Below are positions 51,609 through 54,440 of a stretch of 64,000 nt of DNA, piece by piece. The position numbers and the translations under genes were made by a program. Within the stretch, counting starts at the first letter, position 1. The number at the start of each line of letters is the position of its first letter. This DNA comes from Actinomycetes bacterium. GTDB lineage: Bacteria > Actinomycetota > Acidimicrobiia > Acidimicrobiales > Ilumatobacteraceae. Under the pieces are notes generated by a model. It ran no database searches. It was not told the DNA's origin and was given only the letters and a program-made list of their open reading frames with translations. The stretch covers positions 682,001 to 746,000 of the forward strand of contig JAIOPC010000014.1 of NCBI GenBank assembly GCA_021414085.1, written 5' to 3'.

Positions 51609-51687
51609 CGCGGCCGCGTGTCACCCTCTGTGGCCCCGTGGTTCGTCTGTCAGGCAATGGCGGGGGACGGTTGACTCCTTGAACGTA

Positions 51688-52269
51688 ATGGCCCTCTCCA
51701 TCGACGGACTCCGCTTACCGGCGTTCGTTGCTTCCATTGCCATCGCGCGGGCTCAGGGTGAGGTGATCAGCGATGCCGCTGAGGAGTTAGTTGTCGAGCT
51801 GTTTCGGAGCGACGGGCGGTCGCTTGTGCGGCTGGCGCGACTGTTCGTGGACGATCGTGACGCTGCAGAAGACATCGTGCAAGAAGCATTTCTTCGGCTG
51901 GCTCGCCACGCCAGCCGCATCGAATCCATCGACCGTGCTCCGGCGTATCTCCGATCAATCGTCTTGAACTTGGCGCGCGACCACAATCGGCGCGGACTCG
52001 TCTCGCTGCGCCATCGAGCGACGGCGGGTCGCGAGATCGATGTCGTCGACGACACTGCCGACCAGCTGGCCCGCACGGAGGAGCATCGCACGGTTCTTGA
52101 CGCGGTTCGCCTACTGCCTACTCGTCAACGGGATTGCATCACTTTGAAGTACTTCGAAGAGATGAGTATCGAACAGATCGGTGCGACTCTGGGGGTCTCG
52201 GTCAACTCGGTGAAGACCCACCTACAGCGCGCGATGACGGCGCTCGACCGAAAGCTGGGCGGGTCGTGA
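51688..52269 (+). CDS. ECF-type RNA polymerase sigma factor
   Basis: 193 residues from ATG 51688 (TTG 51679 is possible). Region 2 with RLARLFVDDRDAAEDIVQEA (core binding and -10 recognition) and region 4 with LPTRQRDCITLKYFEEMS and IGATLGVSVNSVKTHLQRAM (-35 recognition). No region 3, as normal for ECF factors. The stop overlaps the start of a membrane protein gene by 4 nt, the usual position of an anti-sigma factor gene. The signal is unknown; an envelope cue is likely from the partner. Confidence 0.92.
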   Translation: MALSIDGLRLPAFVASIAIARAQGEVISDAAEELVVELFRSDGRSLVRLARLFVDDRDAAEDIVQEAFLRLARHASRIESIDRAPAYLRSIVLNLARDHNRRGLVSLRHRATAGREIDVVDDTADQLARTEEHRTVLDAVRLLPTRQRDCITLKYFEEMSIEQIGATLGVSVNSVKTHLQRAMTALDRKLGGS

Positions 52270-52964
52270 GCGTCAGCGCGCTCGAGGGCCGGCTCACCGA
52301 GGCGTTTGCGGACGCCCGAGCAACAGTTTTCGAAAACCCAGACCTATTCGCACGCGTCACAGGCAATGTCGGCGAGGCCCGTGCCCGTCGTCGCTTTCGA
52401 CTGCGGATTGCGGGTTTGGTTCTCGGCTTTGTTGCGGCCAACGCCGTTTTAGCTATCGCACTCTCAGACTTCGACAACAGGAGGTTCAAAATGCAGTGGT
52501 GGGTCATCGAACTGATCACTAACATCGTGCTGGTCGCGCTCGCGATCGGGCTCGGCCCCTTCATCAAACGCTTCGGCCGTTCATACGCAGCTGATGTATT
52601 TCGAGCCAACCCCCGCACAGGCAAGAGCTACCTAGTGCTCACCGACGTTGCGTACTACCTGATCTTCGCCGCGTTCGTGTTGTTCACGGTGACCTTCGTT
52701 CAACCGGCGCGCTGGGAGTTCTCGACCGGGGCACAGCTCAAGTCGGAAGTTGCGCGTGTCGGTGGAATCCTGCTGATCATGGGCATCCTGCACGCGGCCA
52801 ACGTTGTCGCCCTGCCGATCATCGGACGGTTGCTCTCCAGCAACAAGCGCTTCGACGACGAGCGGGCAGCGCCGCAAGAAGCGAGTGGGCCGTCGGCATC
52901 GATGCCACCGTTGGGAGCCGGCACATGGATTCTGCGCATCGAGGAAGCACCCGGCCAGAAATAG
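52266..52964 (+). CDS. Membrane protein coupled to the sigma factor, possible anti-sigma, with internal start
   Basis: 232 residues from GTG 52266 (GTGA overlap). A cytosolic segment of about 50 residues ends in the basic RARRRFRLR, then a first helix, then after DFDNRRFKM a group of three further helices, and a soluble tail. The position and the basic juxtamembrane segment fit an anti-sigma factor, but there is no HxxxCxxC zinc motif. Within the frame AGGAGG (52479-52484) stands 6 nt before ATG 52491, which would give a second, 157-residue protein starting MQWWVIELITN without the cytosolic segment. I do not know a family for this part. Confidence 0.7.
   Translation: MSVSALEGRLTEAFADARATVFENPDLFARVTGNVGEARARRRFRLRIAGLVLGFVAANAVLAIALSDFDNRRFKMQWWVIELITNIVLVALAIGLGPFIKRFGRSYAADVFRANPRTGKSYLVLTDVAYYLIFAAFVLFTVTFVQPARWEFSTGAQLKSEVARVGGILLIMGILHAANVVALPIIGRLLSSNKRFDDERAAPQEASGPSASMPPLGAGTWILRIEEAPGQK
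52479..52484 (+). promoter_or_regulatory. Consensus Shine-Dalgarno inside the membrane protein gene
   Basis: AGGAGG followed by TTCAAA and ATG 52491, in frame with the larger ORF, where it encodes Arg-Arg. The match to the anti-Shine-Dalgarno is complete with optimal spacing, better than the sites of most annotated starts in the window. Confidence 0.55.
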
Positions 52965-53003
52965 CGCGTCACCCCGAGCGACTCGAGCTTCGTCTGTCGT
53001 TTT

Positions 53004-54440
53004 ATGAACTCTCTCAAAGTGCTTGCTGTGACAGTGCTCCTAGCGATGACGGCCAACTGCTCGAGCGACGACGGCGGCGACGACGCCGGCACTGTCGCAC
53101 CGCGGCTGCAGGTTGTTCTCGACTACAGCCCGACACTCTCCGACGCGGGTGCGCTGCTGTACCTCGCTTCGAACCCGGTGGTCGATCTGCTGGCGGTCAC
53201 GCTGCCCGGAACGGGCGAGGCTGATTGCGAACCCGGTGTGCGGATCACACGTGCGTTGTTGACCGTCGCTGGCGCGGCTGATGTTCCCATCGGGTGCGGA
53301 CGCAACACACCGCTAGTCGGCGATCGCGATTGGCCAGATGAATGGCGCGCAGCATCGAACAGTTTCGCGGAGGGATTGCTCCCGACCGTCGCTCCGGCGC
53401 CGGTCGCCGACGCCGAGCAACTGCTCGGCGACACGCTGCGCGCGGCAACCGAGCCGGTAACGCTCGTCGCTGTCGGACCGTTGACCAACCTTGGTGTGGT
53501 GCTCGGGGACGATCCGGAATTGGCTGATCACCTTGCGCGCGTGGTCATCATGGGCGGAGCGCTGGCGGTGCCGGGCAATGTGGAGGCGGCGCCGACGGCC
53601 GAGTGGAACATCTACGTCGATCCGGAGGCGGCACGCCGTGTTATCGCGGCTGGCGCGCCGGTCACGTTCGTTGCACTCGACGCCACCAACTACCTCGCTT
53701 GGAACGATCGTCTGCTCGCGCGTTTGGGTGCCCTGAAAACCGCGGCGTCCGATCTCGAACACGAGGTCGCCGCGTCGACCGAGCTCGATGGTTTCTACCT
53801 TTGGGACGAACTGGCGGCAATGACCGCTGTCGACCCGACATTGGTCACCACCGAGTCGGTGGTGGTTCGCATCGACGACGACGGTGCGCTCGTGCGCGAT
53901 GTAGCGGGGCTCACCGTCGATGTCGCGATCGGGGCCAACACCGATAGGGCTCAGGATGAGTTCGTGAGTGGCTTGAATGGCGGCACAGTGCCCCGTGCTA
54001 CCTCGTTGACGGCGGCCGAACTCGACTACTTCGTTGCGGTGGGTGGCGCCGACTCTGACGCCGGGGTCAGTATGAGCCGAGTTTTCGATAGTTCCAATGA
54101 CCCTGAAGCCGACGCACATCTTCAGGCCGCTACCTTCATCAATGGCTTCCTCGATGCCGTCAACGCGCTCGCGACCGAGTTGCGCGCGGTCTCCGTGCCG
54201 TCCGCTCTCGCAACGGCTCACGACGAGTACGTCGCGAGCCTCGACAAGGTAGTGGCGCACCGAAGCGAAGCTCTGGCACTCATTGCCGCGAGCGATGGCT
54301 CGACCGTGGATGAGATTCTGCACGAGGTCCAACTGTCCGAGCTCGCGGACGACTTCAATCGCGTCGGAGCTGCGTGTCAGGTACTGGTCGACTATTCATT
54401 CCTCCGCGAAGGTCCGCGACCTTGCTCGTTTGAAGGGTGA
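53004..54440 (+). CDS. Nucleoside hydrolase-like exported protein with altered active site
   Basis: 478 residues. Signal peptide with a weak lipobox (AMTANC, Cys19) followed by an acidic linker. The domain from residue 34 to about 320 is of inosine-uridine nucleoside hydrolase type: VTLVAVGPLTNLGVVL, VIMGGALAVPGN and AEWNIYVDPEAA are well kept. The N-terminal calcium loop, normally D-x-D-x-G-x-D-D, reads DYSPTLSDA (Asp40 and Asp47 only), and the C-terminal His-Asp is WDELAAM, with Trp for His. About 150 residues of helical sequence without known motif follow. It may bind rather than cleave a nucleoside, or act on another substrate. Confidence 0.8.
   Translation: MNSLKVLAVTVLLAMTANCSSDDGGDDAGTVAPRLQVVLDYSPTLSDAGALLYLASNPVVDLLAVTLPGTGEADCEPGVRITRALLTVAGAADVPIGCGRNTPLVGDRDWPDEWRAASNSFAEGLLPTVAPAPVADAEQLLGDTLRAATEPVTLVAVGPLTNLGVVLGDDPELADHLARVVIMGGALAVPGNVEAAPTAEWNIYVDPEAARRVIAAGAPVTFVALDATNYLAWNDRLLARLGALKTAASDLEHEVAASTELDGFYLWDELAAMTAVDPTLVTTESVVVRIDDDGALVRDVAGLTVDVAIGANTDRAQDEFVSGLNGGTVPRATSLTAAELDYFVAVGGADSDAGVSMSRVFDSSNDPEADAHLQAATFINGFLDAVNALATELRAVSVPSALATAHDEYVASLDKVVAHRSEALALIAASDGSTVDEILHEVQLSELADDFNRVGAACQVLVDYSFLREGPRPCSFEG

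Follow-up and report, generated by a model that had tools for sequence, protein, structure and literature searches.

Does the gene that follows an ECF sigma factor in an Ilumatobacteraceae genome encode one membrane protein, or two nested ones? The DNA in question comes from an Actinomycetes bacterium (Ilumatobacteraceae; contig JAIOPC010000014.1 of assembly GCA_021414085.1), and the stretch analysed here, the window, comprises the 64,000 nucleotides from 682,001 to 746,000 of its forward strand. A sequence-only reading of the window had pointed to AGGAGG-TTCAAA-ATG, in frame at 52479-52493, as an internal ribosome site from which a second, shorter product could be made. The sequence bears out this arrangement: AGGAGG (52479-52484), TTCAAA (52485-52490) and ATG (52491-52493) follow each other in frame with the 232-residue gene at 52266-52964, and the internal ATG is codon 76 (Met76), which gives a short form of 157 residues next to a long form of 232 (Table 1). 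The start listed for the sigma gene is TTG, and an in-frame ATG at 51688 is a possible alternative.

Table 1 Features of the sigma operon and its surroundings, in positions of the window.
Feature	Position	Strand	Basis or remark
Predicted ECF-type promoter, GTCACCC-N17-CGTCT	51620-51648	+	5' of the sigma gene; putatively recognised by this sigma factor
ECF sigma factor gene	51679-52269	+	Pfam Sigma70_r2 5.6e-12, Sigma70_r4_2 6.1e-17
Long product, 232 residues, probable anti-sigma factor	52266-52964	+	GTG start; 4-nt overlap with the sigma stop
Presumed cytosolic and sigma-binding N-terminal segment, residues 1-49, followed by TM1	52266-52412	+	Conserved residues and helix model
Internal Shine-Dalgarno sequence AGGAGG	52479-52484	+	6 nt before the ATG; kept at synonymous sites
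Short product, 157 residues, predicted C-terminal three-helix membrane domain alone	52491-52964	+	Conserved start codon and model
Second copy of the promoter motif, GTCACCC-N16-CGTCT	52968-52995	+	5' of the downstream gene
Nucleoside hydrolase (context only), possibly in the sigma regulon	53004-54440	+	Pfam IU_nuc_hydro 4.1e-49; motif directly upstream

A single AGGAGG-ATG motif, taken alone, is within the range of chance and could be chance: AGGAGG-N4-9-ATG occurs three times on the two strands of the window against 1.45 expected, and three or more occurrences were seen in 20 of 100 shuffles. The gene contains 21 Arg codons, and AGG is used for just two of them, both inside AGGAGG, the remaining 19 being CGN. 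The Shine-Dalgarno (SD) energy is -4.0 at the long start versus -11.5 at the internal one. We base the case for the internal site on its conservation in relatives and not on the rarity of the motif; on that ground we reject a chance origin, though a lone motif is not rare.

Relatives came from searches with proteins and profiles in 100, 395 and 396 genomes (overlapping sets) and from one genome-contig scan, of whose 102 confirmed loci the best 80 were retained, and each locus was scanned for three parts: the sigma gene, the N segment and the C domain. After removal from the 137 scanned loci of 34 duplicates, one locus at a contig edge (L172) and six without a sigma/N match (L179-L184), 96 distinct loci remained. 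The six are distant stand-alone relatives of the C domain with no match to this sigma factor nearby, and L183 has two copies adjacent to each other. Two layouts make up the 96. In type I (64 loci, the window included), the sigma gene is followed by a single fused gene that encodes the N segment, a transmembrane helix (TM1) and a three-helix C domain. In type II (32 loci), a stand-alone C gene, which begins at the codon homologous to Met76, is followed by the sigma gene and then by a fused gene with a divergent C domain. The stop of the sigma gene and the start of the long form overlap in 59 of 63 type I loci, by a median of 4 nt. The frame from N to C is uninterrupted in 63 of the 64, the remaining locus having a masked stretch, and a stop codon between the two parts was found in none of the 64.

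The layouts also sort by genome. Whole-genome searches of the 22 genomes with type I only returned a single C-domain match in each, with no second match in any of them. All 26 genomes with type II only have both the stand-alone and the fused C domain (G526 has an extra, distant third). G418 carries one locus of each type (L140 and L161), G409 has a fused copy alone, at a contig edge, and G005, G283, G290, G321 and G691 have only distant single-domain relatives. Because in the 395- and 396-genome searches mostly nine first-look candidates were scored per genome, and many of the genomes are incomplete bins, a second copy could be missed in any one genome: absence from one genome is weak evidence, but the consistency across genomes is not. 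Two metagenome bins, those with L067 and L115, are labelled Acidobacteria and hold this otherwise actinobacterial cluster, pointing to mis-binning or transfer.

Within type I, both the start codon and the tract in front of it are kept. The codon at the internal start is ATG in 63 of the 64 loci and GTG in one, the sole exception also being a start codon, and the hexamer nearest to AGGAGG sits 6-8 nt before it in 52 of 63. The anti-SD duplex energy is -5 or lower at 61 of 63 internal sites; of the other ATGs that lie in frame in these genes, 27 of 133 reach that level. The tract is also distinct in its codons: AGA or AGG accounts for 29 of 44 Arg codons at positions -6 to -1, compared with 124 of 2541 in the remainder of the sigma, N and C parts, and GGA for 52 of 67 Gly codons, compared with 158 of 1306 in the remainder of the same loci (L104, which has masked bases, was left out of these counts). 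With a mean of -8.59 kcal/mol (n=63), the SD energy at the internal sites is stronger than in 500 of 500 synonymous recodings (z -11.7), and non-redundant sets gave z -6.6 (35 representatives below 70% identity) and z -4.4 (15 below 55%). The sequence-only reading had proposed to check in orthologues whether AGGAGG and Met are kept while Arg codons vary elsewhere, and its claim of two products withstood that check: the start codon is kept in 64 of 64, the tract is kept at synonymous sites, and outside the tract these genes encode Arg and Gly with other codons. As judged from these alignments, an internal in-frame start with its SD is conserved beyond what the protein needs.

Several controls qualify this signal. 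When the synonymous test was slid along the genes, the site itself gave z -6.2 and lower values appeared at offsets +2 (-10.1), +50 (-9.5) and +1 (-8.4). Offsets +1 and +2 include the same purine tract as the site, and the lowest two mean energies among 165 offsets belong to the site and +1. Offset +50, 50 codons past the internal Met, is an unexplained outlier whose mean energy is only -2.0 in spite of its z. Tested one locus at a time, the tract was often not significant singly (p<0.05 in 16 of 59 loci); that test used small codon tables, 400 draws and a misplaced row (L086), and is superseded by the later one with 500 recodings. Weak SDs (-3.2) occur at two type I sites, those of the Kribbella loci L101 and L114. 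The long and internal starts have similar SDs on average: among 63 type I loci the internal SD is the stronger in 31 and the weaker in another 31. Folding of the type I mRNA is weaker near the site, with a mean of -5.5 kcal/mol in 40-nt windows centred 15 nt upstream and about -13 to -15 kcal/mol 60-105 nt upstream.

What each product would consist of was modelled with AlphaFold2. The long form (pLDDT 81.5) shows helices at 3-20 and 25-66, the latter with TM1 inside it, a hairpin at 68-75, and helices at 78-113, 116-141 and 154-201; the short form modelled alone forms three helices (pLDDT 82.2). In the model Met76 lies at the border between the N part and the C domain, and the cut divides the N part, made up of the presumed cytosolic segment and TM1, from the three-helix C domain, in agreement with the earlier proposal that the short form would lack the cytosolic segment and keep the last helices. 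The predicted helices are consistent with a cytosolic segment followed by a membrane anchor. The N segment, in which E7, A13, D26-L27-F28 and R30 are conserved, is presumed to bind the sigma factor.

Neither sequence nor structure comparison assigned the protein to a known family. Pfam and NCBIfam gave nothing above cut-off for the window protein, at most 8 of 63 members have any one weak Pfam match in common, a search of PDB sequences with the long-form profile gave a best E of 0.38, and Foldseek returned no PDB match at E ≤ 0.001 for the model of either form. In a second structural comparison (VIA) the best Z scores, 7.6 and 9.2, belonged to helical bundles, mite allergens among them, and CorA stalks followed closely; scores in this range may reflect no more than a shared arrangement, and they exclude no family. 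The best PDB match to the N-segment profile, an alpha-mannosidase (E 0.00015), spans only 18 residues and looks like a chance match. Residues 114-121 (ANPRTGKS) form a conserved, presumably cytosolic loop whose letters happen to fit the P-loop pattern; its first position is not conserved, so the fit is probably chance.

The N segment can be set against the known classes of anti-sigma factor, one of which includes CnrY, a membrane-anchored protein. In one account, the class I anti-sigma domain (ASDI) has four helices and an average of 101 residues, and anti-sigma domains shorter than 50 residues are set aside as possibly class II (PMC7406223). The model of the N segment, with about 47-49 residues that form one helix and the start of the TM1 helix, does not match class I. 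Its length of less than 50 residues is that of class II, and the likeness to the CnrY type extends to a presumed short cytosolic segment before a TM helix and to an adjoining ECF gene. Unlike CnrY, the protein has an additional three-helix C domain and an internal start. A search of PDB sequences with the N-segment profile, a short one, found no CnrY.

Type II loci provide a natural comparison by which the role of the short form can be judged. At the codon homologous to Met76, the 32 stand-alone C genes have ATG (29) or GTG (3), and the start is pinned in 8 of the 22 examined, because the frame upstream of it is open for just 3-11 codons. The 32 fused copies of type II have ATG in 15, GTG in 2, TGG in 6 and other codons in 9. 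The mean SD energy at stand-alone starts, -9.40 (n=32), is not distinguishable from that at type I internal sites (p=0.18). The mean in type II fused copies is -4.57 (n=30), which differs from the type I internal sites with p=3e-9, a value that overstates independence, since type I versus type II fused is approximately a single evolutionary contrast. An SD signal is absent from the type II fused copies: 465 of 500 recoded sets were equally low or lower, and their tract has AGR at 0 of 17 Arg codons and GGA at 10 of 38 Gly codons. L073, inside which the domain match begins, and L122, which is masked, were dropped from these SD and codon counts and kept in the tally of 32 codons. Folding energies at the same place are -7.6 at stand-alone starts and -10.6 in type II fused copies (no significance test). 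To judge by these loci, the internal signal is gone where a separate gene supplies the C protein.

The same comparison extends to the protein. Conservation reaches 95% or more in type I and stand-alone C alike at 39 columns. Type II fused copies are relaxed at 18 of these, and K101, K120, N179 and R188, each at 95% or more in the first two groups, stand at 0-3% in the third (that Met76 looks fully kept among type II fused copies in this table is an artefact, since the rows that lack it start later). That these four residues are kept in stand-alone C and lost from the fused copy suggests that the C-only product performs functions of its own. The stand-alone and fused C domains of type II are 39% identical on average. 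The contrast between the layouts draws its weight from the persistence of each side's state across many lineages; on the C-domain tree the three kinds of C domain (type I, stand-alone and type II fused) require just three changes, the minimum possible. This tree has its root among type I rows and groups the stand-alone and fused C domains of type II (SH-aLRT 96). The sigma tree places 60 of 61 type I rows together (98) and has a weak root, among type II, with very long outgroup branches.

The sequence-only reading had proposed two products from one gene by way of an internal ribosome site. The site now has behind it a start codon kept in 64 of 64 loci and a tract kept at synonymous sites; translation from it is a prediction, and we consider it very probable that both the long and the short product are made. 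We propose that one mRNA of the ECF sigma operon would yield two nested proteins. Initiation at the GTG at 52266, probably coupled to the sigma stop through the 4-nt overlap, would give the long anti-sigma factor, made up of a cytosolic sigma-holding segment, TM1 and the three-helix C domain, and initiation at AGGAGG/ATG 52491 would give the C domain alone. The two forms would meet through their C domains in the membrane, where the short form, which holds no sigma factor, may act as a partner that regulates or senses and so determine whether sigma stays with the long form or is released. Both forms would be renewed by the sigma-driven operon, and type II loci would make the same two products from two genes. 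We give this mechanism as a whole, with nested products, membrane partners and a regulatory short form, a probability of roughly 60%. We are evenly divided over its more specific form, a two-subunit anti-sigma receptor from one gene: here the short C protein would be sensory and the long protein sigma-holding, their ratio and the signal would be set by translation, and type II would be the split version, in which the sigma-holding copy has neither the internal start signal nor the sensory residues.

The evidence for two products applies equally if the short form is a decoy or competitor, which, lacking the sigma-holding segment, would pair with the long form or with its signal and so lower anti-sigma activity, in line with the tuning suggested by the sequence-only reading, and in type I the short form does share its entire C domain with the long one. 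A decoy need not keep residues that the long form can lose, yet stand-alone C keeps K101, K120, N179 and R188; these kept residues and the divergence between the two C domains of type II suit specialised partners better than mimics, and we consider a decoy unlikely. We think it less likely again that the two products are independent, the short form being a separate envelope protein that merely shares the operon. Such a role would sit well with the very distant single-domain relatives in the six regions L179-L184, which lack this sigma factor nearby, and with the better conservation of the C domain than of the N part (31 invariant positions after Met76, 3 before it). However, all 131 loci with a close C-domain match among the 137 scanned have this sigma gene beside it, and the type II fused proteins retain a recognisable, though diverged, C domain.

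The purine tract could also be kept for reasons other than initiation, either as an SD-like pause during TM1 insertion or through a constraint on the hairpin peptide. The model does place its hairpin directly before Met76, and most of the 51 different hexapeptides found before the internal Met contain Gly. A constraint on the peptide cannot account for so many different hexapeptides, 49 of which have at least one locus with an energy of -5.5 or lower, or for the codon choice within them (AGR in 29 of 44, GGA in 52 of 67). Pausing would not require a start codon 6-8 nt downstream, but ATG or GTG stands there in every type I locus, and type II fused proteins also have TM1 but are without the signal. 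We regard this explanation as improbable. That the internal site is an unused relic of a fusion of two genes, in line with the alternative of the sequence-only reading, a fusion by loss of a stop, is very improbable: N and C are indeed separable domains, and C alone occurs in type II, but a leftover would decay and fails to explain continued selection on the site, whereas the signal is kept across the 35 representatives below 70% identity, and the reading frame from N to C is open in all type I loci but the masked one, with no stop between the parts.

The preferred reading, of two nested and interacting forms, has a counterpart in the SctQ-type proteins, which are cytosolic, contain SPOA domains and belong to the platform of type III secretion systems. 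Three papers describe SctQ-type genes that give a full-length protein and an internally started C-terminal product (PMC8553256, PMC4832279, PMC4443714). They also describe association of the two for Spa33 (Spa33-FL/C2; PMC4832279), harm to function when the internal start of HrcQ is mutated (M211A; PMC8553256), and separate proteins, HrcQA and HrcQB, in Pseudomonas syringae (PMC8553256). The present gene resembles SctQ, HrcQ, Spa33 and SpaO in yielding, as we predict, a full-length and a C-terminal product, and the HrcQA/HrcQB split resembles type II; unlike SctQ, our predicted membrane protein is encoded next to a sigma gene, and its models gave no clear match to a solved fold. Isoforms from one gene occur within ECF circuits as SigR and SigR' in Streptomyces (PMC4921905), and several proteins come from one gene in the short forms of Mycobacterium tuberculosis SigE (PMC10027907). 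There it is the sigma factor itself that has isoforms, from separate promoters, whereas here it is the anti-sigma gene, with an internal start.

Internal initiation itself is known, as in SctQ; for an anti-sigma factor, no report of internal initiation or of isoforms was found in searches of open-access full text. A gene of this layout would be annotated as one anti-sigma factor and very probably encodes two proteins. The layout occurs among Acidimicrobiia and also among cultured actinobacteria, examples being Terrabacter, Humibacillus, Pedococcus, Nocardioides and Kribbella. It suggests that some membrane anti-sigma factors act as complexes of unequal forms, and it supplies a comparative test for other nested genes: codon choice before a conserved internal Met, a signal lost where a stand-alone copy exists.

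The two layouts also share a candidate promoter. GTCACCC-N16-17-CGTCT, which we take to resemble an ECF promoter, was found close to the start of sigma in 34 of the 64 type I loci; among the 32 type II loci, 20 have it before stand-alone C. The expectation for the counted stretches by base composition is 0.008. Outside these stretches there are 25 forward copies, of which 8 lie about 480-760 nt upstream of stand-alone C and one lies between C and sigma, and 32 copies on the reverse strand, many of them back to back with counted ones; 0.14 copies are expected in all by equal base frequencies. In the genome of the window (3.2 Mb) there are two copies, before the sigma gene and before the nucleoside hydrolase, and one match to the reversed control pattern. 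Reversed control patterns gave 1 match in G000, 2 in G007 and none in G011 and G002. The sigma and long genes probably form one operon, as the overlap in 59 of 63 loci and the motif upstream in 34 of 64 suggest, and this operon is putatively autoregulated. Because the motif precedes sigma in type I and stand-alone C in type II, the C protein is probably expressed together with the sigma factor in both layouts.

Other genes behind copies of the motif give a hint of what the regulon does. In L003 a copy of the motif is followed by a gene for a divergent, secreted Cu/Zn superoxide dismutase (Pfam Sod_Cu 2.1e-24), which runs from about position 640 of the oriented locus on its minus strand, and similar SOD-like frames lie behind the motif in L005, L059, L063, L086, L101, L114 and L163; in a Pfam scan that covered L003, L059 and L101, the latter two fell below the Sod_Cu cut-off. 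The regulon may respond to envelope oxidative or copper stress. The N terminus of the nucleoside hydrolase at 53004-54440 resembles, by eye, a lipoprotein signal.
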